Part shown: in pieces, positions 17,701-63,943 of the stretch
Numbering within the stretch: the stretch's first letter is position 1
How the letters are laid out: every line of letters begins with the position of its first letter
Assembly (NCBI GenBank): GCA_032622095.1
Contig: CP136069.1
Location: 187,787,122 to 187,851,121, forward strand
Length of the DNA stretch: 64,000 bases
Direction: 5' to 3'
From: Siphonodentalium dalli
Lineage: Eukaryota; Mollusca; Scaphopoda; Gadilida; Siphonodentaliidae
Program-made: the position numbers and the translations under genes
Notes under the pieces: model-generated
Told to the model about the DNA's origin: nothing
The model's input: the letters and a program-made list of their open reading frames with translations, nothing else
The model's database searches: none

Positions 17701-20700
17701 TTTGGGCCAAGTCCCCTTGGATGACTTGAGCAACATTCTTGTAACAAGCCGCCCTGGGAATGGAGTCATAAATTCAATTTTATTATAATTAACATGTTGC
17801 TCGCATCGTTAATGGAGCGCATGAGTGTATTTTGCACCAAGGAATTCAACAAAATTAACATCCATTATTTATATTGACACTCAACTTGAGCATTAGTGCA
17901 AATTTTGAACGATATTCTGGCATCAAGTTGCAATATGAAAACAAGTTGGGCCATGCACGCTATGTCACATGATGTGCTATCAACCAATCAATGGTCTCCA
18001 TTCAAACCTTGAAATAGGGTGTCTGTCATTTGCAGAATGAGGTCCCCAGAGGGTGAATTTAGTTATGCTACCCTGCATAGCGGGCTAGCATCACCAAATT
18101 CACCCTCTGGGGACCTCATTCTGCAAATGACAGACACCCTATTTCAAGGTTTGGTCATTAGTGAACTTTTTCTTTTTAGACATTACCTCGCCGCAAAGGC
18201 AGGAGTCTGTTTTCCAGAATTTCTCTAGCATCTGTTCCTTCATCCATTAAATCGAGTTTTGTGATGACACCTATTGTCCGAGTACCTGAGGAAGAGATAT
18301 GAGTAAATGTTCAAAACAGATGTAAGGGAAGTAAAGTCATTTTAAGTTAACATGTGGAGGGTTGGCACCGGACTAACATTTTATCTCGCCAAATGAAATT
18401 TGTTTTTACAAAATTTCAATTGAAATGAGGGTCCAACTAGGGAAAAGTGAGGACAAATTTGAAATTTTTCATCTGTATTATATGATGGCCAACCTTATAT
18501 CTGAAAATAAAATGTATATGTACAAAATCATGTCATTTAAAGTCATCTAGGTGGTTAGTCCAACTTCCTTTGGACATAAACCAGCTAGTGAAATCAGTAG
18601 GGATAATACTGGTTTACATCGACGTATAAACCAGCTAGTGAAATCAGAAGGGATAATACTGGTTTATGATGACGTATAAACCAGCTAGTGAAATCAGTAG
18701 GGATAATACTGGTTTATGATGACGTATAAACAAGCTAGTGAAATCAGTAGGGATAATACTGGTTTATGATGACGTATAAACCAGCTAGTGAAATCAGTAG
18801 GGATAACACTGGTTTATGATGATGTATAAACAAGCTAGTTAAATCAGTAGGGATAATACTGGTTTATGATGACGTATAAACAAGCTAGTGAAATCAGTAG
18901 GGATAATACTGGTTTATGATGACGTAAAACCAGCTAGTGAAATCAGTAGGGATAATACTGGTTTATGATGACGCATAAACAAGCTAGTGAAATCAGCAGG
19001 GATAATACTGGTTTATGATGACGTATAAACCAGCTAGTGAAATCAGTAGGGATAATATTGGTTTATGATGACGTATAAACAAGCTAGTGAAATCAGTAGG
19101 GATAATACTGGTTTATGATGACGTATAAACCAGCTAGTGAAATCAGTAGGGATAATACTGGTTTATGATGACGTATAAACAAGCTAGTGAAATCAGTAGG
19201 GATAATACTGGTTTATGATGACGTATAAACAAGCTAGTGAAATCAGTAGGGATAATACTGGTTTATGATGACGTATAAACCAGCTAGTGAAATCATTAGG
19301 GATAATACTGGTTTATGATGACGTATAAACAAGCTAGTGAAATCGGTAGGGATAATACTGGTTTATGATGACGTATAAACCAGCTAGTGAAAAAAGTAGA
19401 GATAATACTGGTTTATGATGACGTATAAACCAGCTAGTGAAATCAGTAGGGATAATACTGGTTTATGATGACGTATAAACAAGCTAGTGAAATCGGTAGG
19501 GATAATACTGGTTTATGATGACGTATAAACCAGCTAGTGAAATCAGTAGGACTAATACTGGTTTATGATGACTTATAAACCAGCTAGTGAAATCAGTAGG
19601 GATAATACTGGTTTATGATGACGTATAAACCAGCTAGTGAAATCAGTAGGGATAATACTGGTTTATGATGACGTATAAACCAGCTAGTGAATCAGTAGGG
19701 ATAATACTGGTTTATGATGACGTATAAACAAGCTAGTGAATCAGTAGGGATAATACTGGTTTATGATGACGTATAAACCAGCTAGTGAAATCAGAAGGGA
19801 TAATACTGGTTTATGATGACGTATAAACCAGCTAGTGAAATCAGTAGAGATAATACTGGTTTATGACGTATAAACAAGCTAGTTAAATCAGTAGGGATAA
19901 TACTGGTTTATGATGACTTATAAACAAGCTAGTGAAATCAGTAGGGAAAATACTGGTTTATGATGACGTATAAACAAGCTACATGTAGTTAAATCAGTAG
20001 GGATAATACTGGTTTATGATGACGTATAAACAAGCTAGTGAAATCAGTAGGGATAATACTGGTTTATGAAGACGTATAAACCAGCTAGTGAAATCAGTAG
20101 GGATAATACTGGTTTATGATGAAGTATAAACCAGCTAGTTAAATCAGTAGGGATAATACTGGTTTATGATGACGTATAAACCAGCTAGTGAAATCAGTAG
20201 GGATAATACTGGTTTATGATGACGCATAAACAAGCTAGTGAAATCAGTAGGGATAATACTGGTTTATGATGACGTATAAACCAGCTAGTTAAATCAGTAG
20301 GGATAATACTGGTTTATGATGACATATAAACCAGCTAGTGAAATCAGTAGGGATAATACTGGTTTATGATGACGTATAAACCAGCTAGTGAAATCAGTAG
20401 GGATAATACTGGTTTATGATGACATATAAACCAGCTAGTGAAATCAGTAGGGATAATACTGGTTTATGATGACGTATAAACAAGCTAGTGAAATCAGTAG
20501 GGATAATACTGGTTTATGATGACATATAAACCAGCTAGTGAAATCATTAGGGATAATACTGGTTTATGATGACGTATAAACAAGCTAGTGAAATCGGTAG
20601 AGATAATACTGGTTTATGATGACGTATAAACAAGCTAGTGAAATCAGTAGGGATAATACTTGTTTATGATAATACTGGTTTATGATGACGTATAAACCAA

Positions 20701-23700
20701 CTAGTGAAATCAGTAGGGATAATACTGGTTTATGATGACGTATAAACCAGCTAGTGAAATCAGTAGGGATAATACTGGTTTATGATGACGTATAAACCAG
20801 CTAGTGAAATCAGTAGGGATAATACTGGTTTATGATGACGCATAAACAAGCTAGTGAAATCAGTAGGGATAATACTGGTTTATGATGACGTATAAACCAG
20901 CTAGTTAAATCAGTAGGGATAATACTGGTTTATGATGACATATAAACCAGCTAGTGAAATCAGTAGGGATAATACTGGTTTATGATGACGTATAAACCAG
21001 CTAGTGAAATCAGTAGGGATAATACTGGTTTATGATGACATATAAACCAGCTAGTGAAATCAGTAGGGATAATACTGGTTTATGATGACGTATAAACAAG
21101 CTAGTGAAATCAGTAGGGATAATACTGGTTTATGATGACATATAAACCAGCTAGTGAAATCATTAGGGATAATACTGGTTTATGATGACGTATAAACAAG
21201 CTAGTGAAATCGGTAGGGATAATACTGGTTTATGATGACGTATAAACAAGCTAGTGAAATCAGTAGGGATAATACTTGTTTATGATAATACTGGTTTATG
21301 ATGACGTATAAACCAACTAGTGAAATCAGTAGGGATAATACTGGTTTATGATGACGTATAAACCAGCTAGTGAAATCAGTAGGGATAATACTGGTTTATG
21401 ATGACATATAAACCAGCTAGTGAAATCAGTAGGGATAATACTGGTTTATGATGACGTATAAACAAGCTAGTGAAATCAGTAGGGATAATACTGGTTTATG
21501 ATGACGTATAAACAAGCTAGTGAAATCAGTAGGGATAATACTGGTTTATGATGACGTATAAACCAACTAGTGATATCAGTAGGGATAATACTGGTTTATG
21601 ATGACGTATAAACCAGCTAGTGAAATCAGTAGGGATAATACTGGTTTATGATGACGTATAAACCAGCTAGTGAAATCAGTAGGGATAATACTGGTTTATG
21701 ATGACGTATAAACAAGCTAGTGAAATCAGTAGGGATAATACTGGTTTATGAAGACGTATAAACCAGCTAGTTAAATCAGTAGGGATAATACTGGTTTATG
21801 ATGACGTATAAACCAGCTAGCAAAATCAGTAGGGATAATACTGGTTTATGTCGAAGTACAATTGCCTTACTCTTCTATAGAAGACTTTTCGCCCAGATCC
21901 AGTGGCAGGATTTTTCGTCAGTTTTAATTGACTTTATCAATACAAAATGCCATATTTATTGGAAAGAGTGATTGATATCTTATGATCATAATGATGTATT
22001 ATAACACTGATGATAATCTAACATTTATGCTAAATTATGCAAAAAATATTCTGTGTCATCAGGAGCAACTCACATTTGATCTTTGTTGTTTACGTTCAGA
22101 GAAGAATGAACTGTTACAAACTTTTGAAATTATGTATACTTTTATAACTGAGTGGGAGAATCCTTTCAGTATAGAAAGGGGTTAACTGAAAGAATTTCCT
22201 TTATGAATTATGTTTCTGTTCTACCTCTTACTCTCCTCAATTATAGTAATTATAGTCACCCTTCAATTTAGTGTCGTGATAACCCGAAACAAAAAATAAA
22301 AATAACATGTATAACTTGACTTAAAAACTTCAAATCGTTCTCTGTTGCATATCATGATTTCCATTACAATATAAAAGATTGCCCGATCGCCTGTTTAGAG
22401 CCAATTGATGCCCATTGATGTACATGTAAGTAAGAGTGCAAGCTCGAGCGCATGAAGGAGTGTATGCCTGAATGTATGTATCAGATGAATATTATCTATT
22501 GTATTCAACATGTAAAACCATTCATTCTGTATGTAAAATCATCTGACTGTCTCAATAAAAAAAATTTTTTTTTTTTTTAAACTGAAAGAATTTGATGCCG
22601 TTCCTCACAGGTAGGTGTATGGCCTCCACTCATGACCAGTAGGCCAAAAGTCATGCTATGGGAAGTGACATAAAATATTCTCAGTTAATTTATGTTCCTA
22701 AAACTTACCCTGTGGATCAACTTCTTTTGCAATTTTGAGGGCATCAGAGTTTGCTAAATCTGTGTTGGCTGGTGATACTGCTAGAATCAAACAACTTGGG
22801 CTCTGTATAAACTCCATCAACATAGTCCGAATAATCGTTTCAATGTCTTTTGGCTGATCACCGACGGCAACTTTTGTCATACCGGGTAAATCAATGAGTG
22901 TGAGGTTGAGTACTGAAAAAATTAAAATAGAATAAAATTAAAGAAACATGCAAGGTTTCAGGCTTCCAAATACAACAAGAACATTTTATAATAACATATA
23001 ACTTTACACTATTTTTCACTTCACACAACCAAGTCTGAGTTTAGTGTGCCTGTCATTTGCAGAATGAGGTCCCCAGAGAGTGAATTTAGTGACGCTATCC
23101 CACATAGCGGGCTAGCATCACTATATTCACTAAAGACCTCATCTTCTATGGAAAGTTTCTTTATTATAAATATTCTATAGAAACTTCTTCACATAGATTC
23201 TATTTCTTTTTAGTTTAGTTTCTCTATATCCCCAAATTGGCAGACGACACATTGCATAATCGAGGTTTCCAATGGACGTACACCACAATATTCACAATTT
23301 GGGAACTGCAATCTGAGTCTATGTCTCCCATAGCAGATGAGGACATGCAAAATGAGGTCCCCAGACGGTGAATTTGGTGATGCTAGCCCGCTATGCAGGA
23401 TAGCATCACTCAGCTAAATTCACCCTCTGTGGACCTCATTTTGCAATGACAGGCACTAAACTCAGGCTTGCACACAACTAAAATGTTAGGAAGGTTTAGA
23501 TCAAGATCTTCAAATTAAAACTTTTTAGGCGCTGTCGGCTACATGTACAAAGGACAAATGATGCATGCCAGATATTCCCACATGAAAACGATGTATCATC
23601 TGACGGTTGGTAGCGGACAGCAACTACATGTATTATCTGAGCGTTGGTAGCGGATGGCGATTATATGTATCATCTGACGGTTGGTAGCGGACAGCAACTA

Positions 23701-26700
23701 CATGTATTATCTGAGCGTTGGTAGCGGATGGCGATTATATGTATCATCTGACGGTTGGTAGCGGACAGCAACTACATGTATTATCTGAGCGTTGGTAGCG
23801 GATGGCGATTATATGTATCATCTGACGGTTGGTAGCGGACAGCAACTACATGTATTATCTGAGCGTTGGTAGCGGATGGCGATTATATGTATCATCTGAC
23901 GGTTGGTAGCGGACAGCAACTACATGAATTATCTGAGCGTTGGTAGCGGATGGCAATTATATGTATCATATGACCGTTGGTAGCGGACAGCAACTACATG
24001 TATTATCTGACCGTTGGTAGCGGATGGCGATTATATGTATCATATGACGGTTGGTAGCGGACAGCAACTACATGTATTATCTGACTGTTGGTAACGAATG
24101 CCGATTATATCTATCATCTGACCGTTGGTAGCGGACAGCAACTACATGTATTATCAGACCGTTGGTAGCGGACGGTGATTATATGTATCATCTGACATTG
24201 GTAGCGGACAGCAATTATACGTATCATCTGACTGTTGGTAGCGGACAGCGATTATATGTATCATCTGACTGTTGGTAGCAGATGGCAATTATATTTATCA
24301 TCACCATTGGAAGTGGACAGCAATTATATGTATCATCTGAACATTGGTAGCAGACAGCGATTATATGTATCATCTGACTGTTGGTAGCGGATGACTATTA
24401 CATGTATCATCTGTCCGACCGATCGATGGTAGCGGACAGCACCTAAAGATTGAAGTTAGAAGTTCTCATTCTAAACCTCGAGCTCACTATTGTTAGAAAC
24501 TATATATTTGTATACACTAAGCTTATAAATAGTACATAAAGAAACTTTTTATTGCAAAATCAAGGCCATATTTTCTCAGCTACATTGTAAATCATTAAAA
24601 GTAAATAGCAATATTGTACTGTTGCGGGCAAAAATTGTCCACATAGTTACAGTAGATGGTCATAAATTTGAACATCATTTTCAATTGACAACGGTGTATA
24701 TCAAGTTTTATCTTGCAAAATATTTAACACACCATTTTATGGTATGTAGGAATAGTATCATATTGTGTATTCAATTTCCATGAAACCCAACAGAAAATAG
24801 TCTCATATTTGTAACTGGCTGTAAATGCAAACTTAGAACATAAATTTCCCAACACTTATTATAAACTTATAATACACTTGTGAAATATAAGGGAACTCAC
24901 CGTGTGGGGAGTAAACCCTAAGGTTGATGGGAATGTTTGATATGCCTCTGTTGCTACCAGTGGCACGATCGGTTTCATCTTCGATTTCCTTCCGAACAAG
25001 GTTGAAGTCTGTGAATTGCTTGCCTTTTTGATGAAGAAATTCTGCATGTTCTGTAGAAGAAACAACAAGATGATATAACCCATGGCTGAGATACATGTAC
25101 TTACATTGTAGGTGAGTGGGAAAAAATCAATATTTCCTATAAACAAAGATGAATAACTCTAGAATGAAGAATGCAAACAAACACCATTTGACATTCTATT
25201 GAAAGCTCTTGTGATGATGAACATCTATTCCGTACCAAATTTCATCAATATCATATAACTCATGGCTGAGATACACAGACAGACGGACAATTCCAGGAAT
25301 TATGAATCTGTTACTTTTTTGCCACAGTAGGGATCTTTTAACATGCGCACATTGTTGGATACGGGACAGCCATTAGATTTTGGCTCCCAATCCAATGTTA
25401 TGCTTAGCATAGTGTGATCCCTGGCCATGACATTACAAGAGGAGCAGAGGTATGAAATTTGTCGAGTACGTATTTTTCAAATTTGTCTGAGATTATTTTA
25501 GTATCTGGAATCGTTCTCAGAGCACTGATCACGGCATTGTTGATTGATTCATGTCATGTCATGGCAGATGGCAACACAATGAACCCTATGCATATACATG
25601 TAACAGTCCTCAAAATTGGCCATGGCAATAAGCAATGTCGTGGGAAATGCTGTGGTAATATGTGGAATCTACAGTAATGCCCTAAATAATCGACTCCTTA
25701 ACCACAGCAGAATTATGGGTAATTTTTCAGGATTTAGTCGGAAATATGGCTTGTTGCCATTCATCAGAAAGCTCTCACTGAGGTATAATAATACAAAAGA
25801 TCATAACTATAATATACTCTGTCTTCTGTATGAAATGTCTTTAGAAAATGGGGAAGAAGCAATAATGCAAGTGATCACAAGGCAAGTTTTATGTTCTGCC
25901 TCCAACATATCATTGATTGCTAGTTCAATAAGAAGTTGTGTAACTCCCATATAGATGTTGAATATTGAACATAAGGGATGCCATTTAAAGATGGTCTCTC
26001 TCTTCCCAGAAAGTTTTAAATAGATTCTGAGGTATAAAATATATGTTTTCTTAAAAGCATCACTTTGGCATATCAACATCGCAGCTACATGTACATCAGC
26101 AGAATCCACTAACATCATGGGATTATCATCAAGACCAGAGTATAAATTTATGTCTAAAATATACTCATGCAAATCTACTGTACTTTACTAGCCCATCTGA
26201 AGTAAATTTACAGCTGTTGGCACCAATATTACATGTTACTGTATAATTACAAAGTATGGTCTGAATGTTAATATTAAATGAAATGACACATGTGTGTAAG
26301 ATTATAAGGGCACACCAGAACTTTCTTCACACAAATTCCTTAATTACATGTGTATAATTATTTGTATAGGAACAGTGTAGTGCTGTATTTACTTACTATA
26401 TACGCGATTCAGGTAAATATAAATGAGTGACTCAGAGTGAGTCCAACAAATTAATAACAAGCATGTTACAATAGAATAGTACATGTGTACCAAATGTTAG
26501 TCGATCCAATCAAACTTCATACTTCTGGAAAAATATATTTTCACGCAAGCCTTGAAATAGGGTGTCTGTCATTTGCACTTACACCTCAGCAGAATGAGGT
26601 TCCCAGAGGGTGAATTTGGTGATGCTAGCCCGCTATGCGGGGTAGCATCACTAAATTCACCATCTGGGGACATCGTTCTGCAAATGACAGACACCTATTT

Positions 26701-32700: not shown

Positions 32701-35700
32701 AAATTTTTGGTGTACATTTAGGCATGTAGTTACTGTATTTACATGTCCATACTGAATACTTCAAAGTGTGCATATAAGGATGGTCCTGTCCTGTATCAGA
32801 GCAACTATTTGGCAATAAACTCATTAATTCTTAGTTTGGTTTTTTTCTCCCTATAGTGTTGGTGTCCCTTGTGTTTAAAGCTGCACTGAACTGACCGCTC
32901 CTCAGTATGCAAAGCCAGTTGGGAACCAGTTTTCTGGAATGTGTGCCCATTGAATAGCGCTATCCAGGTTCAGACGACTTGGTTCACGGGCAGCTCTGGC
33001 ATGCTGATAGATGGTCTGTTCGATTTATAGTTTTAATACAATGTGTTCACCAATTGTCCAGCTCGAAACGTTTGTGCATGATTCTTTATATTTTTGTGCG
33101 TGATTATTTATATTTTTGTTACTGTTTCGGTTTTCTTTTAATGATCCTATATTTTGGTTTTCCAATTTGTCAAAGTTTTTGAAAAATGACCGAAAAAATT
33201 CAGAAATGGCCCAAAAATTGCACAAAGAACTTTCTGGCCAGAGTGAACCCATCACATACTAGAATCAAAGTACATTACTATAAATTACAGCTTTGATCAG
33301 AGGGGTAGTCAGAAATTAAATTTCAGACACTACGATACTTTTTTTTTTTTTAGCTTCCGCCATTTTTGGACCCACCTACATGTACCCATTTACCCAAAAT
33401 GTTTTCCATTTCAGTAAGTTTTTTCCTACCATTTTTCGATACCCACCACCCCTAGAAACACAATTTTTTTTTTTAAAGAATAAAAGAATTTTCGCCACTT
33501 ACTGTCTATTTCCTATCAACTACATGTACCGGTACCTATTATAGGCTGGTGTCTGTGGTTAGCTCAGTTTGACATGACAGTGATTGCTTATGCAATGTGT
33601 CCATGTATTTTATGTTTGGAGTGCCCAGACTGAAATATACAGGGAATTTAACAACAAGAAACAATATCTGTACTGACCATCTAATGTAATGTCAGTTTTG
33701 ATGTTAAAATTACATAATATCTAAGTTTTTTAGGGCCATAAGTAGTTAACAAATATGGAGAAACGTTTTTTTTTTTTACCTGCAGAAAAAATGCCTTTCG
33801 GGTCCTCTTGACCACCCATATATGGGCATACAGGGGGGGGGTAAAAAATTGCTTGAACCCCCCCTCCTTTCAATAAGAAATTCCTGTAGAAAGTTTTTAT
33901 GAAGACTGCCTGCAATTCAATTTTTAACACTAGTATATTGACGAGTTTGTTCAGAAATCATATACATAAATATGCAGTTTAAACGCAATGTTCACCCACC
34001 ATATACCTGTACTATGTAAGGTCTTTGATCAGTTGGTCACAGCGAGAGTTCTGAGTGAAATGTCATTGATTTTCAGATAAGCTGGACTCGTTATTCTCCA
34101 CCCTGCCCTGGGATGGAATAATTCAAGCTGGTTGTAGACTATAAGATTTAACCATTTCCATGACTGGATTTCCTGAAATTTTCATTGGCCTAACAATATT
34201 TACCTTGGACATTGTAAGCCAGTGCATTCTCTTATATATGTATGGCTCCCTATGGAATACTCATATTTATAAGAGAATGCGCTGGCACAGGATGTTTAAT
34301 GGTGCAATGTTCACAAGCAGTTTAATACATGACTGTAGTAGTACAACCAAATAGGAATGTTACAGGGCTATTGTTGGAGTGGGGCTAATGTAGGCCTTGC
34401 ATTTAATAAGGACAAATGTTCCAGCTCCTCTCCAGTTCTCCTAAAATCAAAATAAGGAGGGTGGTAGTAAAGTCTGAGTATAGTGTGCCTGTCATTTGCA
34501 GAATGAGGTCCCCAGAGGGGGAATTTAGTGATGCTATCCCGCATAGTGGGCTAGCATCACCAAATTAACCCTTTGGGGAATCATTATGCATGGCCTCATC
34601 TGCTATGGGAGACATAAACTCAGTTTGAAGTTCCCAAATGATGAATATTGTGATGTACAGCCATTGGGAGCCTCGGTTATGTAATGTGTCGTCTGCCAAT
34701 TTGGGGATATAGAGAAACTAAACTAAAAAAGAAATAGAATCTATGTGAAGAAGTATCTATAGAAATTTGATAAAGAAACTTTCCAGAGAATATGAGGCCT
34801 ATTAAGCATAATGAGGTCCCCAGAGGGTGAATTTAGTGATGCTAACCCGCTATGCATGATAGCGTTACTAAATTCACCCTCTGGGGACCTCATTCTGCAA
34901 ATGACAGGCGCACTAAACTCAGGGTTAGTGGTAGTACCATATTGTTCTTCCACTGTTTGATCACTCATATACTAATAGAGCATAGTTTATAACCCCACAT
35001 TTTAATATACCATGTACATGTACAATGTATACAACCTACATGTACATGTAGTTTACAATCCACGTATCGACACGTACGAAGACACCAATGCATTAACATA
35101 TAATCATATATTCATATAACCATACATGTAAAGTGTGTGTTAAAGAAAAGAACATTGCAGAACATCACATACATGTACATGTACATATTAGCTTGCTCCA
35201 TATATTCAACTCCATAACAAATGTATACAGATGTAGGTCTATTAACATTACATAATTAAAATTTGATATGTCAGTAGTATTTCCTATAACAATCTACAGC
35301 CTTCAATGACTTCCTGAATAATTGACTTATGTTTAAAAAAAATGTTTTGTAGTTATTTTTACTGCATACTAATTTGATGTTCTACAGTGGTTACAGTGAG
35401 ATACATGTAGCCTAATTTATGTTATCAATGAAATTACTGTATGTATGCAGTCTGTTGATAAAAATACTTTCAAGAGACCTTAACCCTTTGAGTGCCAAGT
35501 CCGATTTTTGTATCAACCCATATACCCTGTGCCAATGCATTCTCTTATATATGCGAGTCGACCATAGGTCGCCTCGCATATATAAGAGAATGCATTGGCC
35601 TAACAATTTTTCATCATTTGTTATTATTTTTTACAATTTTTTACAATTTTAATAATTTTTTCTTATATTCTTTAACAGACTTATTTTGTAGGTTTAGTGC

Positions 35701-38700
35701 CAGGGAATCTTACGTTTTTCATGGGCATCAAAATTATTACTTTGAATACTTGGTGATAGTTTTGAGTTATAACACACCCCTAAGGTTTTATCCAGTTTGT
35801 TTTTAAATTTGCTATGGCATGCTAAAGCAGATCGGCCCCTGGCACTCAAAGAGTTAAACTAATAATAGTGCTCTGATAATAGGTTAATGAAATAATTACT
35901 CAAACTTGTGATCTCATCTCTTAGGTGTGGTGACCTGTGACTGAAGAGTCGTAAGTTACTCGTAACTATTATTTATACCTTCATTTATTATCCTCGTCCA
36001 AACAAAGTTTAAATCAAAAGCTTTCTTCAATATTCTGGTGTATGAGTCAAGTCTAAACTTAGTGTGCCTGTCATTTGCAGAAATGAGGTCCCCAGAGGGT
36101 GAATTTAGTGATGCTATCCCGCATAGCGGGCTTGCATCACTAAATTCACCCTCTGGGGACCTCATTCTGCTTAGGCCTCATCATCTCTGGAAAGTTTCTT
36201 TATTGTCAAATTTCTACAGAAACTTAGATTCTATTTCTTTTTAGTTTAGTTTATCTATATCCCCAAATTGGCAGATGACATATTGCATAATCAAGGTTCC
36301 AAAGGGTGTACATGTACATCACAATATTCACATTTGGGAACTTGAATCTGAGTTTATGGCTCCCATAGCAGATGAGGCCATGCAGAATGAGACCCCCAGA
36401 GGGTGAATTTGGTGATGCTAACCTGCTATGCGGAATAGCGTCACTAAATTCACCCTCTGGGGACCTCATTCTGCAAATGACAGGCACATTAAACTCAGGC
36501 TTGGTTTGAGTGTGTTGATGATTATATCAACAAACATTGAAGAGTATTGACATTCCTTTGTACCAAATGATGTTGTAAATACTAGTACACGTACATGTAG
36601 TTCATGCGACCAGGTCTCAAAATATGTTGCTGGTCGTTGTAGAATGAGGTCCCCAGAGGATGAATCTAGTGACGGTACCCACGCACAGCGGGCTAGCAAC
36701 ACTAAATTTACCATCTTCAGGCCTCATTCTGCTTAGGGCTTATCTTCTCTGGAAAGTATCTTTATTATAAATTTGTTTTAGTTTCTTTAGAAACTTCTTT
36801 AGAAAGTTTCTTTTACTTTTTTAGTTTAGTATTCTTTACACATGCATGTTGAGATGAACCTGAAGACTCATTCAGTGATTTCCACCACGCATTCAGGGGT
36901 TAACCCTTTACCAAACAAAATGGCCAAAACCAGCCAAATAAAGCTTCAACAGCCTAAAATATCTTCGGTCTGTCTCAATAGAACCATACAAATATGGATA
37001 TCATTGGAACCGGCTCCTTGACCACATTGTGATAGTTACAGTTATGCCCTGTGCCAATGCATTCTCTTATATATGCGAGTCGACCATAGGTCGCCTTGCA
37101 TATATAAGAGAATGCATTGGCCTAAAAAAAACTTTTTTTAACACTTTTTACCATTTTTTCTTACATTCTTTAACAATTTTATAATTTTTAATGTGTTAAG
37201 CCAATGCATTCTCTTATATATGCGAGGCGACCTATGGTCGACTCGCATATATATGAGAATGCATTGGCACAGGGCCCTTCTGTTGGGTAAAGGGTTAATT
37301 GACAACCACTGGTAAAGTGGCCTTGCTACAGCTATCCTTGAAGTAATTGGCCGCCTATAACGTGGTGTCACCCTGGTAACATCTTGCGGTAACCACAGTC
37401 AACACTGCGTTAAGGTTACCAATTCATAACTGGGATTTAACCCTTTGAGTGCCAGGGGCCGATCTCATCGGCCCTAAACCTACAAAATAAGTCTGTTAAA
37501 GAATATAAGAATAAATTATTAAAATTGTAAAAAATTGTAAAAAAAAAAAAAATTGTTAGGCCAATGCATTCTCTTATATATGAGAGGAGACCTATGGTCG
37601 ACTCTCATATATAAGAGAATGCATTGGCACAGAGTATATGGGTTGACACAAAAATTTGCTATGATGTTGGTGGGGCCTGCTAATTCGCTATGATGTTGGT
37701 GGGGCCTGCTAATTCATACAGTACTAATTGTTGACAAACTGCTGTAACTGTGATGTTTCCATAACAATGATTTCAACATGCGAAATATCGTTATTGGAAA
37801 ACTATTTAAAGTGAATATGTGAACAAAGTCAATCTACTAGTATTTTCCTATGTACATGTAGTTCATGGTGAAGATGACTTTACAGAATTTACTGATTTCT
37901 CACATCTACCCACTACGAATGACTTACGTCCCTTCGTTAACCAATATCTAACAATTACCTGTTTTTGCATTTATTAACTGTAATACCAATGGCCTTCTTG
38001 TGACAATGCCATTGCCTCTGGGTAAGAAGTCCCTGGAAATAGAAAATAATTCATGTACATGTACTGGGTAAATAGGATTTTTTTAAATCCTTTGATGACA
38101 CAAAATTCTGGATTTCTCTTTGGTAGCAATCAGCACGACTACATGTACGTATATGAAGAGCACAATACCTATCCTAAAATTTTGATCCCCCCCCCCCCCC
38201 TCCACAAGAACTTCATCAGAGAAATATTCAAATTTTAACATTTCCCTACTATATATAGGACTCCTTCTGTATTTGTATTATCTGTAGGCTGCTATTTTTC
38301 CTGAAAACCCCTTCAGATAAATAATAGACCATTAAAATGTATACTTTTATAACTGGGTGGGAGAATCCATTTAGTATTAGAGCTGGGACGGTTATGGGTT
38401 TTTCGTGACCGGTTATGAACGGCAAAAAACCGCGATTAACCGGTTAACCACATATTATAGGTACTATTATGGGTGTGTAAGCCCAGTATGCAGAACGGCG
38501 ATGATTGTGATGCTCACTGACATGGTAAGTTTGAGAACGGCTCCTGCCCATTATACAAAGAAGTTGTCACCCATGACACACATAATCACATATCTAATTA
38601 ATTACTGTATACACCCCGTCAGTAAGCCCAGGGGGCACGTGCACGTTTTTGTCCAAAAAGTGGGTACTGCATGGGCTTACTCACGGGGATCCCCCCCCCC

Positions 38701-41700: not shown

Positions 41701-44700
41701 ATTGGTATCGGACTACAACAATTATATAGCTGAATGGTGTACCCATGTCCAAGTGTGTCAAATCAAACAAGACAGTCAATGACTGGGATGACTCACCTGA
41801 CTGTAAAGATGGAGAAGACTCTGGGACTTTGAAAACTACAACAGTCAGTACTTGTCAAAATCGCTTTAACCCTTTACCCAACAAAACGGCCAAAACCGGC
41901 CAAATAAAGCTTCAACAGCCTAAAATATCTTCGGTCTGTCTCAATAGAACCATACAAATATGGATATCATTGGAACCGGCTCCTTGACCACATTGTGATA
42001 GTTACAGTTATGCCCTGTGCCAATGCATTCTCTTATATATGCGAGTCGACCATAGGTCGCCTCGCATATATAAGAGAATGCATTGGCCTAAAAAAAAAAT
42101 TTTAAACACTTTTTACCATTTTTTCTTACATTCTTTAAAAATTTTAGAATTTTTTCTTACATTTAAAAAAAAATTTATAATACTTTTCTACATTCTTTGA
42201 CAATGTTATCATTTTTAGTATGTGTTAAGCCAATGCATTCTCTTATATATGCGAGGCGACCTATGGTCGACTCGCATATATAAGAGAATGCATTGGCACA
42301 GGGCCCTTCTGTTGGGTAAAGGGTTAAAAAAAAAGTAATTCTAAACAGGGACATAGCTGGAGTTTCTCAGATGAGCAAGGATCTTCACCTTTAAATTTTT
42401 AATTGCACACCACTAACAAATCTACAAACCCTTCCTCTCTTTAAACAAAACAACCAGACCAAAGTCCTAAGTTCACAAAATTCCTTTTGCACATCCCTCT
42501 CAGGTTGAAATTTTACAACTGATACCGGTACTTCAAGCTCTCGAACTTGGACATTTCCAACCTGACATCCCTGTAAAGTTAAAATTTGTGGCCAATTTGG
42601 TCCATCAGTCAAACTCAAATCACACTATGAGAACAATTCTAACCTATTTTTTTGTGTGAAAATCTAATCTACAACTAATGTTGTATCAGGCATGTAATTT
42701 CCAACTGTTTAACATTTTGATCAAGTAGGGGGTCAAAACTGCACTCCCCCCTCCTTTACACTCCCTTCCAATTGCCGCACCCAGGCAGCTTAGAAATCAT
42801 TAGGAATCCGGATGAATCTATTTATTATTATACCAATACCAAACAACATAGATACAGGTACATGTAGGGTGGGTGGGGAGAGTTAAATCTCTGATCTCTG
42901 CCCCTATTTGAACAAATGTGAATCCCCATCTATGAGACCCATTCATCTAGTAATTCCAAATGGTAGATTTTAAGAGTTGAAGTGAATTGATTTTCCTTAA
43001 AAACATGAAACCATTTGAACAAATCTGAACTCCAGGCACCTAAGGACCCTCCATACCAAATATAAGTTAAATCGGCCCGATGGTTAAGTAGGCCTAATTT
43101 TTCTTTGCAAAATTAGGGTATACATGTACATGTACTTAGTTCACCTGGATAAGTGGTGGTTGAGAAAATAATATTGGAACAGCCAAGCGTGAATTTAGTG
43201 AGTCTGACAATTGCAGAATGAGGTCCCCAAAGGGTGAATTTAGTGACGCCATCCGGCCTAGCATACCAAAATCACCCTCTGTGGACCTCATTCTGCAAAT
43301 GTCAGAGACACTAAATTCAGGTTTAGGAACAGCATTTTGTTTTGATTTGATTTAAATGACACACACCCATATTCTGCTATGCAGTTGTTTACACCTGTCT
43401 GTTCAGTTTCTATATCCCCAATTACAACTGGGGAACTTCAATCTGCTCATACATTAGGTCTCACAAAACTGTTGAGGCCTAAGCAGAATGAGGATCTGAG
43501 ACGGTGAACTTGGTGACACTAGGCCACTGTAAGGGATAGTGTCAATAAATTCACCCTCTATGGCCTCATTCTGCAAAAGTCAGTGCTTGGTGCTTGGTGA
43601 AGGTATATTTCTGAATATAATTTAACTAGCCTCATAAAATGGCATTACTGAACTTGGGGAGGGGGTACATGTACCCTTATTTCTCAAAACTAAACAAAAC
43701 AACAAACCTGTTGGGGCTAATGGCACACAGTAGACACACAGCTGGATCAATATCGTGAAATAACAAATATATATCACCAATAAGAGAGCCATGATTTCCT
43801 CAATGGTGATTGAAGGTTCATTTAAATTTGAATCATCCACCAGGGGGAGGAGTAATCCCTGTTATTGAATCATCCACCAGGGGGAGGAGTAATCCCTGTG
43901 TTATTAGATTAATTAGTTGTTTTTGATGACATTGGAATGTCACCGCGGGCTGTTCATTCCAATCATTTGTCTTTGTGCTGTTTTTATCACATAGCTAGCA
44001 GGCTCTTAGAATGGCTTGGGGGCGGGATATCTCTCAATACAATTTAAATGGCTCTGAATGCCTTGGGGAAGGGGGTGTTTTTCTTCTTAACAAATTACCT
44101 TAAAACCCTTTCATGACGGGAGCTGCACTGGCACAACATTAAATACCCTGTGCCAAAGCATTCTCTTATACATGTGAGTCGACCATAGGTCGCCTCGCAT
44201 ATAAAGGAGAATGTAATGGCCAAACAATTTTTTATCATTTTTTTTATCAATTTTCTTCGTTCTACAATAATTTTTATAATTTGTTCTTACATTCTTTAAC
44301 AATTTTTATTTTTTTATCATTTTCTCTTAAATTCTGTAACAATTTTTATCATTTTTTTCTTATATTCTTTATCAGTTTGATAAATTTTTTGATAATGTTT
44401 TCTTACATTATTTAACGTTTTTTGATAATTTTTTCTTACAATCCTTATCAATTTTTATCATTCGTTCTTACATTCTTAAACAATTTTATAATTTTATATC
44501 AAGCCAAGAAATAGTGTGTTTGACGTTTGCAGAATGAGGTCCCCAGGGCATGAATTTAGTTGATGCTAACCTACACAGTGGGCTAGCATAACTAAACTCA
44601 CCCTCTGGGAACCTCATTCTGCTTAGGCCTCAACTGCTATGAGAGACATACAGGTAGGTCAGGTTAGGATCAGATTGAATTTCCCCAGTTATCTTCTGCA

Positions 44701-47700
44701 AATTGGGAGATATACCGGTAGAAAACTGAACAGACGGGGGAAAAAGTAACTAAAAACAATGTTATTTTGAGACAATACATGTAGATACTTCCTAGAATAT
44801 GAGGACTAAGCAGAATGAGGTCCCCAGAGGGCGAATTTGGTGCTAGCTCGCTGTGTGGGGTAGCATCACTAAATTCACCCTCTGGAGACCTAACATTCTG
44901 CAAATGTCAGATACAGTAATGCTCTAAATAATCGACTCCTTAACCACAGCAGAATTATGGGTAACTTTTCAGGATTTATTCGGAAATATGGCTTGTTATC
45001 ATTCATCGGAAAGCTCTCGGTGAGAGCTTTCTGATGAATGGCAACAAGCCATATTTCCGACTAATCCTTAAGAGTTACCCATAATTCTGCTGTGGTTAAG
45101 GAGTCAATTATTTAGAGCATTACTGTACACTATATCCAGGCTTGGTTTCAAGTGCTATCCGGATATAGTGTGACACTCATTGTTACCCCTAATAAATAAT
45201 ATAACCAATCATGTGTATATGATCTTCCCCCATTAACTGTGAAGCATCTGTATATTATTAAGCAATGATGCCATTTATGTCATGCTTTTTGCTCTATTTT
45301 TTATGATGAGTAAGGTCAGAAATGACACAATGACATGGAGTGATATGCAAAGAGCACAATAGATGAAAAGAGATAACAGGAAACAGCTAAGTTCATAACA
45401 AAGGTCAATGACAAGACAGTATGCTGAATTCACAAACTATAAACAGTAGATATCTTGAAGACAACTGTACATGTACAGGTATACATGTACATATGTACTA
45501 ATATACAATTAATGGAATGTTGTTTAAAATTCAGTCACCATTAGAGTACAGGTATTACTTCTGCACAATAACACACCAGTATGTATACATGTAGGTCAAA
45601 TCTAATAAATGAATAGGGAAAAATTACTTCTCCATGTTTCGAACAATTAAGTCTCTTGGCCGGACACTGAAATTAGCTCAGAACATTACTACAGTAATGC
45701 CCTAAGTAATCGACTCTTTAACTACAGCAGAATTATGGGTAACTTTTCAGGATTTAGTCGGAAATATGGCTTGTTGCCATTCATCGGAAAGCTCTAGGGC
45801 ATTATTGTATATTATAGTTATGATCTTTTGTATTATTATACCCCCTGGATGACCAAAGGAAATAGTGGGTATACTGGATTACATGCAGCCCTCGAAATTA
45901 GGAAAAATGTCCCATGGCAAATTTAATGCTGTGGCATTATAGATTCCACATATTACCACAGCATTTCCCACTAAATCCTGAAAAGTTACCGATAATTCTG
46001 CGGTGGTTAAGAAGTCGATTAATTAGGGCATTACTGTACCACATGTACTCATCAATGAGTATTTAGGATAGAACGGGATACAGGGGTAGGTAACAAGATA
46101 GAGGTAGCAGGGACCAGCCAAATTGACGACTTGTGAGAGGACCAGCCTAGAGAGTGACTTGTGAGAGGACCAGCCTAGAAGGCGACTTGTGAGAGGACCA
46201 GCCTAGAAGGTGACTTGTGAGAGGACCAGCCTAGAGAGCGACTTGTGAGAGGACCAGCCTAGAGGGCGACTTGATAGAGGACCAGCCTAGAGGGTGACTT
46301 GTGAGAGGACCTGAGCCTAGAGGGCGACTTGTGAGAGGACCAGCCTAGAGGGCGACTTGATAGAGGACCAGCCTAGAGGGTGACTTGTGAGAGGACCAGC
46401 CTAGAGGGTGACTTGTGAGAGGATCAGCCTAGAGGGTGACTTGTGAGATAACCAGTCTAGAGGGTGACTTGTGAGAGGACCAGCCTAGAGGGTGACTTGT
46501 GAGAGGACCAGCCTAGAGGGTGACTTGTGAGAGGACCAGCCTAGAGGGTGACTTGTGAGAGGACCAGCCTAGAGGGCGACTTGTGAGAGGACCAGCCTAG
46601 AGGGTGACTTGTGAGAGGACCAGCCCAGAGGGCAACTTGTGAGAGGACCAGCCTAGAGGGCGACTTGTGAGAGGACCAGCCTAGAGGGCAACTTGTGAGA
46701 GGACCAGCCTAGAGGGTGACTTGGGAGACATCTTCTCTGTAAAATGTGCCACTTCTCCCTATTTTTGTCCCAGCGAGAAGTGACTTCTCTCTCATATACA
46801 TGTACATGTACCAGTATGCGTACATGTATGTTCCTACATATTATTTAAACTATATTTACTGATAATGGGGTTCTTATTCACTATAATGTTTTCATAAACG
46901 GGCTATTGTGTTGCATAATACTTATCAGATCATAGATGGGTGATGTTGGAGTGTAAATTTTCAGCCATTTCACTTCTCTCTGAGAACAGTCCACTTCTCC
47001 CTAATAACCAAACAGTGAGATGTGACTTCTCTCAATTTGAAATCTCTTGCCTGGTCCGTTATAGGAAGTTATTGCCACTTATTCTCAGGAATGACTTCCT
47101 ATTTAAATGCCCCTGGTGGGAATTGATCGCTTCTAGTATTAACTGGGTCTGATATATTGATTAAAGATGTATTCCCATAGCTCTGTTCACCTAACCATAT
47201 TTTGATACTGCATAAGTAAAGCTATCGGACGGCAAGTCCCAACAGTAGAACAAGTAACAATTGATCAGATAGGGTAACCCCTCCATCAATATACACGACA
47301 CAAGGGAGTTTACAATGTTCAATGTATATATATTGATTTCTAAAAGAAGTCTAATAGTGGAGATAAAATTGGGCTAATTTAGATTCTCTACTGCATCTCA
47401 AATTGCCTGTGTATTGGCAGTTTGTGTCAAAAAAATTATTCTTGATATGAATGAGAAATGACATTGATCAAGTTTCATCAATATAAAAATGTTGAATCTT
47501 AACCCTTTCAAGACAGGAACTGCGCTTGTGCCGCATTACAGATCCTGTGCCAGTGCATTCTCTTGTATATTAGAATGTACTGGGTTAGGAGGTCAAGGTA
47601 AATGTTGTTAGGCCACTGTATTGTCTTATATATACATGTATGCGAGGCTCCCTATGGGACATACCGTCATGGAAAGGGTAATGCATTCTCCTCAAGTACA

Positions 47701-50700
47701 GTAATGCCCTAAGTAGTCGATTACTTAGGGCATTACTGTACGCGTGTACCAAAACAAATGTTTTAGTACAGGACTTAAGTTGGACTTTTGTGTTGAATTT
47801 CAAACTACACCACCCCAACAGACCAAATTCCCGATTGGGAATATACATGTACACCTCAGGGCCCATGCTACCCGGTAGGCTCCAATATTGCAACAGATTA
47901 AACATATTTTATTGGAATAAGGTCACACCAATATTATAGCCTGGTTTACGAACTTTTAAGTGGGAAAAAAGTACATGTTAGATGCAGGAGATGAATATAT
48001 AATAATAAATGAAAGTGTCACCGAAGTTCAACATGGAGAGGTGATAATGTCATACATTACAGTCAATTGAGTGATTAGGAATGCGGAAAGTTAAAATGTT
48101 TAAGCAGAAAAATGTTGGCAGTAGGGTGAGCTGAAGTATTTACAAGTAATTATGCAAAAAATCCATGATGGCCGTTTTCATCGAAAATCATTCATATTTG
48201 ATGGCTCCCCATCTAGAAGTGATGACCTATATTTTTATCGTGTGAAGGACCAAAAACAATATTAATATTATTCAACCACGTTTTCAATAATCTGGCAGAC
48301 ATAAACACTCAATGCTGATTCATCTTTTCAGACATTATGTTGTTCTATGGTGAGTTTTACTCCAAAAAAATAGTATGGCAAACTAAAATATGCAATGAAA
48401 AATGTTTTATTCATCTTCTCGGAGACAGTAAATGATTTTAGATGGTAGACAAAGCGATTGCACAAGCTGGGTTCATAAGCTAGATAATGCAGTGTGTTTT
48501 TGCAAATATTTCATGTCAAACTCTGTTGGCCTACATGTACCTCAAAATATAAACTTTTTTTCTAAAACAATTTTTATTTTTACATAATTAGATCACATCT
48601 CTCATATTGTGAGGGTAAACAGGTGTTGTTATACTCGCATATATAAGAGAATGCACTGGCACAGGATCTTTAATGGTGTACCAATGCAGCACCCATCATT
48701 AAAGAGTAAATGCTGCAAGTCGGCCAAGTCCCTTTGTTTATAATTGTATCACAATAGGAATTTTGAGAGCAGGGCGCGATTTAACTGGATTTTTTTATTC
48801 ACCTCAAATTTCTTCCCCTGCACCCCAAATCAGCACCGAAACCAATGCTAATGGCTGACCCACCCATGTGCAACAATGCGCAGTTGTAAAAGAACCCTAC
48901 CATGGTGAAGAAATCATGCATGAATTATGGCAAAATTACCTGGTAGAATTAAAGAGTGGAAATAAGCCACTACTCCACTAGTACACCTACATGTACACAT
49001 ATTCTCAAAATAAGTGTCCCCCTCGAATATATTGGAATCTGTGCTCTGACACAATGAACGTCAAATCGGTTTTAGTGTTAACGCAACATGGTTCAACATG
49101 ATTGCAATGTACCTCAATGCTGTGGAGATAACTGCCAATGCAACATAACACAGTACTCTTGAGTGCCTAATAAACATACATGTACGATTATTAAAATCAA
49201 GGTAAAATTGCCACCTGTACGATCGCTATTTGGTCCTGTACTATTATTCAGTTACGCAACATTTTCCAACCTGTACTATTATTCCACCCTGTACTTTTAT
49301 TAGGCACTCAAGAGTACATAGGTTCTGCCAGGGATATGTCTGGACGTCTTTGTGATGACCAGACTGGCCTGTTTTGGCAAACGATAGGCCTGTCGACCGA
49401 TATAGCTTGTGGTTTTAGAGTTGGCTCATAAGTATTTTTTTAATCTACCGGTATCAACTGAAATTAACTCCACCAGAACGTGGTTATAAACGAATTTTAC
49501 TATGTTGAATTTTTAAGAATGAAATATTTACTTGTATCAGTTGATAAAATATTGAGGCACTTTCAACGGACACATGAATAGTTGGGACGACATTATGTCG
49601 ACATACATGTATAATACATGTATTTGGTATAAACTGAATGGATGAAAATTGATCCTTGATCGATTTCCAAACAACTGAACTACGAAATAGAAATTATTAT
49701 ATTATAGTAAAAACAATTACAAAAAAACGGACAAAGCTCATTTGAACCCAGAGTAGGCTTACTAGGCTAGCGTGTGTTTTTAATTTTAGCAATTTGACAG
49801 TAGAGGCTTCTGGTACATACATTTAATACTGTACCTTGCAGGTTGATTATCAATAAGTAATATGAAATACTGGTACAGTACGGGGAATGACCGCGGTGTA
49901 AGGCGGTCGCGGAAAATACTACTGCGGTGTACACCGGTAACGGACTAGATTACCGCGGTGGACTTCAAACACGACCGCGGTCAGATACCGTGGGTCACCG
50001 TGAATGGGCGGTGTACTACCGCATGACCGCGGTTAGGGTTGGGCGGTATTGACATTTTTAAAAACCGCGATTTTTCCAAAATAACACTGCGATTTACGGT
50101 TTTATTGAATATTATTTTACTACTGAAAAATACCACGTAAAATCAAATTTTAAACGAGAGATACTCCGGGTTTTCGTTATGAGGGATGTAAAATTGTACA
50201 CACTATCACCAGGCAGTAAATGATAAACTATTCTCAGAATGGCATGTGCCCATTCTATAAAGTTCCTGCCTTCTGGAATACGCAACAACATTGAGTGAAT
50301 TACAGGCTCAAGTTATCCTGATTACTCCATTGTTTACATATCGGCATGAGATGCACATTCCCGTTACGTCATAGCTAAGCACATGTTCATAGGTTGATAG
50401 AGGACCTAGTAGAATTGGGCTAAGATGGTAGATTCTGGGTTGTCTGCAGTTTATCATACACTATGAATTACGGAACATTTTTAAAATAACTTTTGAACAC
50501 GGGAAAGATAATCATAATTAATCATTGAACAATATTGCAGTTCGTGTGTTTATTTGTCCAAATTCTTGGCAATATAATTGAACGACAAATACCGCTGAGT
50601 CATGAGTTAGAAAGTTTGGACAAAATATCGCTCGTGACTTTACACCGCTACCAGGTTGGATTCGGAAGAAGATACTCCATCGCTCTACTTTAGCCCAAAA

Positions 50701-62025: not shown

Positions 62026-62027
62026 GG

Positions 62028-62132
62028 CGTTTGTCCGAAACATGACATTTGTTTTAATTATTTTGTTTTTATTTAAAAAAATATAAATAAAAACAAAATA
62101 ATTTTAAAAAATGTCATGTTTCGGACAAACGC
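62028..62132. repeat. Inverted repeat around GGCGTTTGTCCGAAACATG
   Basis: GGCGTTTGTCCGAAACATGA and TTTGTTTTTATTT pair with ATAAATAAAAACAAAATAA ... TCATGTTTCGGACAAACGCC. Arms are about 48 bp with a short A/T loop. No flanking duplication. Confidence 0.8.
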
Positions 62133-62195
62133 CTTTGTTTTTTTTTAATTTTCCCGTTATTTAACCTGCCCGTGGCCATTGAGCAGCCCCTGACA

Positions 62196-63390
62196 TATGG
62201 CAAGCCGTTTTCACATTTTCGATTGATTTAGACTTAAGTCCAATTATTTTGACTTAAGTCCAAATAATTGGACTTAAGTCCAAATAATTGGACTTAAGTC
62301 CAAATAGCAAATTGGACTTAAGTCCAAATACCACATAATTGTGAATTCGGCGAGGAATTGGACTTAAGTCCAATTGATTTGGACTTAAGTCCAAATACCG
62401 ATATTTTCATCTATTTGGACTTAAGTCCAATTCCTCGCCGAATTCACAATTATGTGGTATTTGGACTTAAGTACAATTCATTTGGACTTAAGTCCAATTA
62501 ATCTGTATAAGAAACACCCCCATCAGATATTAAGCAGGTCTGGTTTTGCTCATAGGGCGGAGTTGTGGGAAAATGGCCGTTTACATCTGGGTCTAATTCT
62601 TGTTGATCTTGTTAATTGTTACCTTTCTCAACATATATAATGAATCAGCTCGATGTGGACCAGATCAAATATAAGACACTTAGTAATGCAATAAACGAAA
62701 CTGCGTGTAGCCTACACTACATGCTGTCAAATAACAATTGAATCAAGTCGTGAATTAATTTTACTTCATTCATGCATGCAGTTAGCATTTATTAAGATGC
62801 CAATTCGGATTCGAAACATTTTCAATCTCGGCATGCCGAAAACAAGCCACGTGGCAAAGGGGACGTACGGAGTTAGTCTTGGAGTCAGGAATGCCCTGGT
62901 TAGTACGAAGTTTGACTGTCAATCAAAACTTGCAGGAATATACCATTACAAAGAAGGGGACTATCGTTTCAAACCAGATGAATTGGACTTAAGTCCAAAT
63001 GAATTGGACTTAAGTCCAAATCAATTCACTAATTGGACTTAAGTCCAAATAATTGGACTTAAGTCCAAATAATTGGACTTAAGTCCAATTATTGGACTTA
63101 AGTCCAATTATTTTGACTTAAGTCCAATTATTTGGACTTAAGTCCAATAATTGGACTTAAGTCCAAATAATTGGACTTAAGTCCAATTGATTTGGACTTA
63201 AGTCCAAATCAATTCGCTAATTGGACTTAAGTCCAATTCATTTGGACTTAAGTCCAATTCATTTGGACTTAAGTCCAATTATTTGGACTTAAGTCCAATT
63301 ATTTGGACTTAAGTCCAAATAATTGGACTTAAGTCCAAATAATTGGACTTAAGTCTAAATCAATCAAAAATGTGAAAACGGCTTGCCATA
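62196..63390. mobile_element. Foldback-type element packed with GGACTTAAGTCC palindromes
   Basis: Terminal inverted repeats of 50 bp with one mismatch start TATGGCAAGCCGTTTTCACA. CTGACA flanks both sides (62190-62195 and 63391-63396). Inside are 28 copies of the 12-bp palindrome GGACTTAAGTCC or close variants (10 left, 18 right), separated by AT-rich AATTATT-like spacers, around a unique core of about 470 bp (62517-62980). A secondary inverted repeat pairs CCTCGCCGAATTCACAATTA (62410s) with its complement near 62340. No transposase. Confidence 0.88.
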
Positions 63391-63523
63391 CTGACAGAGG
63401 TTGTTATGTTTTGTTTGTGTTTTTCAATGAGTTAATATTGGGTTTTTCAATATTTTACCCGATTTGACCTTGAATTGATAATTTTCAAGGTCAAGGTCAT
63501 GTCGGGGTCACAATATATAATTT

Positions 63524-63943
63524 GTGGGTACCCGTTTGAAGGTTAAGACTGACCCGATGAAAAATTCCCCCGTTCCTAGGAACGACAGACATAAGAATGT
63601 TTCACACAATGCGACGTCGACGATCCCCGTGTGTTTTTACACTTATATACGAAGTTTGAGCTCACCTAGGGCGGAAAAACTTACCCGATCCGCGTTCTTA
63701 GGAACACAACACGCTCCGCGTTATTATGAACACAACACGCTCATGTCTATACACGCCCAGACCCAGAAGAGGTATGATTTTTTTAACCTGCCCGTGGCCA
63801 TTGAGCAGCCCCTGACAGAGGTTGTCCACCCTTACGAGATGGTCAATAGTCCCCGCAAAGTTAATCCAGTCGTGAACCCCATCCTCGCAAAGAGCGGACA
63901 GTCAATTAATCCCGTCGTGAACGCCATCACCAACGCGACGTAA
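63524..63943 (+). CDS. Unassigned 139-codon reading frame
   Basis: The frame runs from MGTRLKVKTDPMKNSPVPRN to the end INPVVNAITNAT and a TAA stop. I recognise no domain. The base composition is GC-richer and more codon-like than the surroundings. NLPVAIEQPLT is encoded by a stretch whose nucleotides recur at 62163-62195, where the foldback element is inserted. There is no evidence for transcription, and it may be a fragment of a mobile element or of a gene continuing past the window edge. The start methionine is arbitrary. Confidence 0.3.
   Translation: MGTRLKVKTDPMKNSPVPRNDRHKNVSHNATSTIPVCFYTYIRSLSSPRAEKLTRSAFLGTQHAPRYYEHNTLMSIHAQTQKRYDFFNLPVAIEQPLTEVVHPYEMVNSPRKVNPVVNPILAKSGQSINPVVNAITNAT

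Follow-up and report, generated by a model that had tools for sequence, protein, structure and literature searches.

Near the end of the window (the whole stretch of 64,000 nucleotides of Siphonodentalium dalli DNA that was analysed) lies a mobile element of 1,195 bp, at 62196-63390, which starts with TATGGCAAGCCG and ends with CGGCTTGCCATA. It opens with TATGGCAAGCCGTTTTCACATTTT, and the same end stands in inverted form on the right. The element is bordered by two exactly matching copies of CTGACA, at 62190-62195 on the left and 63391-63396 on the right. This match cannot be extended either way, leading to a target site duplication of 6 bp and an unambiguous element boundary; the chance figure for a 6-bp repeat is 0.00036, a value valid for a fixed boundary only. 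Approximately 390 bp downstream of the element, a block of 47 bp (63779-63825, forward strand) reproduces the two flanks joined around one CTGACA, without gaps and with 46 of 47 positions identical. This block is read as a paralogous empty site, representing the unoccupied state of the CTGACA target, and with it the insertion reading does not depend on the repeats of the element itself. In the single insertion examined, the element was inserted at CTGACA, with the duplication of 6 bp. A previous sequence-only reading of this DNA had proposed a mobile unit with these same boundaries, flanked by this hexamer; its coordinates are exact, and the proposal has been strengthened by the empty-site copy found within the window.

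The terminal inverted repeats extend over 62196-62300 (forward strand, beginning with TATGGCAAGCCG and entering a palindrome array) and 63286-63390 (reverse strand, closing with CGGCTTGCCATA), and 101 of 105 positions agree when the left repeat is compared with the reverse complement of the right one. Over the first 55 positions the agreement is 53/55, the mismatches of the complete repeat being located at positions 25, 55, 69, and 72. Inverted repeats of 50 bp had been described at these ends; they are indeed present, although they are longer (about 105 bp) and contain one mismatch within the first 50 positions.

The palindrome GGACTTAAGTCC occurs 28 times inside the element at one mismatch or fewer (23 exact copies and five with one change), in arrays located on both sides of a unique core, which confirms the count and arrangement initially reported. 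The left array (62230-62495) contains 10 copies, seven exact and three with one change, and the right array (62985-63356) contains 18, of which 16 are exact and two carry one change. In the 64-kb window as a whole, 29 GGACTTAAGTCC sites are observed, whereas 100 shuffles gave 0.08 on average, the sole site outside the element being a one-mismatch copy at 26821. Moreover, an exact 16-bp palindrome, TTGGACTTAAGTCCAA, is found at 23 of the 28 array copies. Substitutions affect five of the 336 bases of the GGACTTAAGTCC cores, at core positions 1, 11, and 12; array units were counted at up to two mismatches and without gaps, so that cores broken by insertions or deletions are uncounted and the contrast between cores and spacers is partly built in. 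The spacers between the 12-mers are 7 to 34 bp long, and 20 of the 26 within-arm spacings are of 19-21 bp, the rest being of 24, 29, 29, 36, 46, and 46 bp. In the right arm, the spacing fits a period of 10.0 bp (R 0.87) and does not fit one of 10.5 bp (R 0.15); in the left arm no clear helical phase was found, the best period being 9.3 bp (R 0.62). These spacings do not demonstrate same-face phasing of the palindromes. The array starts 34 bp from the tip of the element, within the terminal inverted repeat.

At E 1e-3 the unique core (62504-62980) matches nothing else in the window, and its folding is no better than that of shuffled sequences (-42.5, the shuffles averaging -45.8 with sd 4.2 and n=50). 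For a strand of the whole element, folding reaches -383.1 kcal/mol, against -112.7 in shuffles (sd 7.3, n=25). Of the listed open frames that reach 90 aa, a single one overlaps the core (62695-63042), and it gave no match in Pfam and none in PDB, with E up to 1 in each case. None of the 40 stop-to-stop frames listed for the window, all of 90 aa or more, matched a transposase (Pfam, E up to 1 or up to 0.1). The Pfam cut-off was reached by two of these 40 frames, both matching dynamin and both on the minus strand: 14275-14550, whose best PDB matches are dynamin-1 chains, and, barely, 24836-25126. These two frames appear to be exons of an intron-split dynamin gene.

The ends of the element are TATGG..CCATA. 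According to published descriptions, TA..TA ends are found in all complete IS3EU families, usually together with 6-bp duplications, and GingerRoot has 6-bp duplications and, mostly, TA..TA ends (PMC10045372), while in rust fungi IS3EU elements show TAYGG..CCRTA ends, inverted repeats of more than 30 bp, and 6-bp duplications (PMC12730594). The element studied here has a 6-bp duplication, the ends already mentioned, and inverted repeats of more than 30 bp (53/55 and 101/105). It probably belongs to the IS3EU (GingerRoot) superfamily, an assignment made through the ends and the duplication length of one copy and not through a protein; the TAYGG form is published for fungal families, and beyond fungi the available text of the two papers holds only the general statement on TA..TA ends (PMC10045372, PMC12730594). 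The "unfamiliar design" that had been attributed to the unit is not borne out, as its ends and its duplication length fit the IS3EU signature given in these sources.

When the window was scanned for TAYGG..CCRTA pairs separated by 60-4,000 bp and showing an exact 6-bp duplication and a match at 7 or more of 12 end bases, this element alone was recovered. Without the demand for TAYGG, four other TA..TA pairs pass at an end match of 10/12, and when other end dinucleotides were used, 13 of the 15 gave matches, from 1 to 93 pairs each, many of the pairs listed having a palindromic or low-complexity "duplication". Thus, a 6-bp match with similar ends is not rare by itself, and it is the empty site, together with the TAYGG ends, that carries the argument.

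Other repeats are present in the window. An abundant family of about 440 bp with long inverted arms (TAGTGTGCCTGTCATTTGCAGAATGAGGTCCCCAG...) is found at about 720-1165, 4927-5369, 9814-10247, 13815-14238, 23042-23456, 34480-34915, 36060-36510, and 44501-44918; the copy at 720 aligns over at least about 415 bp with at least seven others in the 64 kb, many shorter matches being found besides. A 3.3-kb tandem array at 18576-21850 is built from a partly symmetric 50-bp unit with inverted halves (ATAAACCAG...CTGGTTTAT), and just upstream of the mobile element, at 62026-62133, there is a hairpin-like repeat in which GGCGTTTGTCCGAAACATGACATTT and its inverse enclose a centre rich in AT. GTCGAT-TACTTAGGGCATTACTGTAC, the terminus of a repeat, occurs in both orientations at 46020-47741 and about 44930, once as two facing copies, and lies next to an array of 601 bp (46128-46728) built from a 28-bp unit. 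The segment 46020-47715, with TA ends, an end match of 11/12, and GTCGAT on both sides, was considered as an IS3EU relative and rejected, since GTCGAT is also found next to the facing copy of the terminus at 47722 and, as its reverse complement, next to a similar terminus near 44930; this hexamer therefore looks like a part of the repeat and not like a duplication.

Regarding the formation of the arrays, the symmetry of the GGACTTAAGTCC core means that orientation can be read from the spacers only. The spacers AATTATTT and AAATAATT, which represent opposite orientations, are both found in both arms, and longer spacer types occur in the arms in one or other orientation. The left array contains an inverted duplication (62310-62478), in which 62310-62373 is the reverse complement of 62415-62478 and each half includes two palindromes and a 34-bp spacer; the two halves are identical at 63 of 64 positions, a figure read off the printed alignment, the full alignment being 65/75 and reaching past the match on either side. 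A unit of 151 bp is present in the right arm in about two copies, with 93% matches, and the longest words common to the left and right arms are of 53 (direct) and 55 (inverted). Taking into account that simple slippage would keep one orientation, the spacers in both orientations and the block copied in inverted form suggest that the arrays grew via duplications in which strands were switched at the palindromes, or that exchange between the arms took place.

Considered as a whole, the locus may correspond to a non-autonomous IS3EU foldback element with putative transposase-binding palindromes, a reading to which we give an even chance of being right. An IS3EU integrase-type transposase made elsewhere would bind the 26-bp tip and the palindromes, the latter offering a protein dimer a series of two-fold symmetric sites; later, the transposase would cut at the TA ends and join them to a target staggered by 6 bp. 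A role of the palindromes as a dense binding array for a dimeric protein is plausible by analogy with other elements. The transposase dimer of piggyBac and piggyBat uses two C-terminal domains to bind palindromic subterminal sites, and activity is restricted by interior sequences of the ends (PMC11707139). In Galileo, additional transposase sites have been attributed to the arms, and it has been proposed that a greater number of sites raises efficiency (cited in the Tetris paper, PMC4079207). From these precedents, the arrays described here might either raise or restrict activity. More tentatively, it can be suggested that an IS3EU lineage turned its terminal arms, via palindrome-driven strand switching, into arrays of a two-fold symmetric putative transposase operator with a spacing of about 20 bp, close to two turns of the helix, that the array would concentrate or titrate the transposase, and that the resulting foldback would be of integrase-type, and not of Mutator or P, origin.

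The main rival proposal accepts the same IS3EU element and considers its arrays as by-products, generated by hairpins and template switching that multiplied the palindromes, with no binding role; this is possible, though we do not regard it as probable. The mixed orientation of the spacers in both arms, the inverted block of the left arm, the words shared by the arms in both orientations, and the two copies of a 151-bp block in the right arm agree with such an origin. The scarcity of core substitutions while spacer lengths vary, and the maintenance of most spacings at 19-21 bp, argue against it; however, recent amplification is compatible with both observations, and a count blind to insertions and deletions could also give the first one. 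Thus, core conservation could reflect recent amplification instead of binding.

Recruitment by the array of a dimeric DNA-binding protein of the host (a transcription or silencing factor), in place of the transposase, is unlikely. A two-fold symmetric site, dense and regularly spaced, would suit such a protein, but the first palindromes are found so close to the tip (34 bp) as to lie inside the terminal inverted repeat, and in other elements it is the transposase sites that sit within this region.

Returning to the proposed IS3EU foldback element, its long inverted arms with internal repeats are indeed foldback-like, as was first recognised in the sequence-only reading. Most foldbacks seem to be Mutator-related, with exceptions, and arms of this kind are those which foldbacks have (PMC4079207), so a classical Mutator-type foldback element has to be considered. 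The duplication falls in the range of 4-10 bp given for MuDR and its bacterial kin (PMC10045372), and its length alone does not exclude Mutator. However, it is of exactly 6 bp, against the 8-10 bp of Tetris (PMC4079207), and the ends of the element fit IS3EU (PMC10045372, PMC12730594). A Mutator origin is consequently very improbable, although it is rejected less firmly than Dada. Duplications of 6 bp are also made by hAT6 (PMC12730594), which the IS3EU-type ends make unlikely here, and by Polinton and some LTR elements (PMC10045372); compared with Polinton, in which the 6-bp duplication is accompanied by Polinton genes, this element has 1,195 bp and no recognised gene. Finally, the inverted repeats of about 105 bp practically refute a Dada element, the lead suggested by the earlier reading: although Dada-U6 makes 6-bp duplications, the available text of its description reports that its authors found no terminal inverted repeats and that all clear-ended copies lie in small-RNA (snRNA/tRNA) genes (PMC3706591), and no tRNA genes and no Rfam matches at gathering score were found in the whole 64-kb window.

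In searches beyond the window, the terminal 21-mer gave no matches in viral_contigs and the tandem palindrome pattern gave none in genome_contigs, while the palindromic 16-mer was found in three contigs of viral_contigs, at one site each, which has been taken as chance. A text search of the literature did not find the motif, and only the 12-letter terminus string was retrieved, in papers on unrelated subjects by title. In a survey of oyster satellites, two satellites are annotated as DNA/IS3EU, and the available text describes no such arrays (PMC8268682). Both the superfamily that the mobile unit would join and its architectural type are already known; their combination was not found in the published literature searched and is apparently undescribed, which speaks only weakly for a true absence, since the search did not take in Repbase or most subscription journals. 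If the IS3EU foldback reading is true, another transposase class would give rise to the same architecture as the foldbacks attributed mostly to Mutator (PMC4079207). Moreover, a near-perfect repeated palindrome provides a specific candidate binding site for IS3EU, a superfamily whose published descriptions give, in the text available, no subterminal sites.

As regards known systems, the element shares with IS3EU/GingerRoot the TA..TA ends, the TAYGG..CCRTA pentamers, the 6-bp duplication, and inverted repeats of more than 30 bp, and it differs in its palindrome-array arms, absent from the available text of the published IS3EU descriptions, and in that no transposase was recognised in it. With the Tetris and Galileo foldbacks it has in common a middle domain placed between long inverted arms that contain internal repeats and, with Tetris, the existence of copies without conserved open frames; for foldbacks, the repeats of the arms have likewise been proposed as extra transposase sites (PMC4079207). 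However, Tetris makes duplications of 8-10 bp and has arm repeats of about 220 bp, in contrast to the 6 bp and the 12-bp palindrome placed every 20 bp or so in this element. With piggyBac and piggyBat the element shares palindromic subterminal sequences, bound in those two by paired C-terminal domains of the transposase dimer; in piggyBat, an imperfect palindrome is present three times and insertion takes place at TTAA (PMC11707139), whereas the element described here carries 28 near-perfect copies and has used a 6-bp target.
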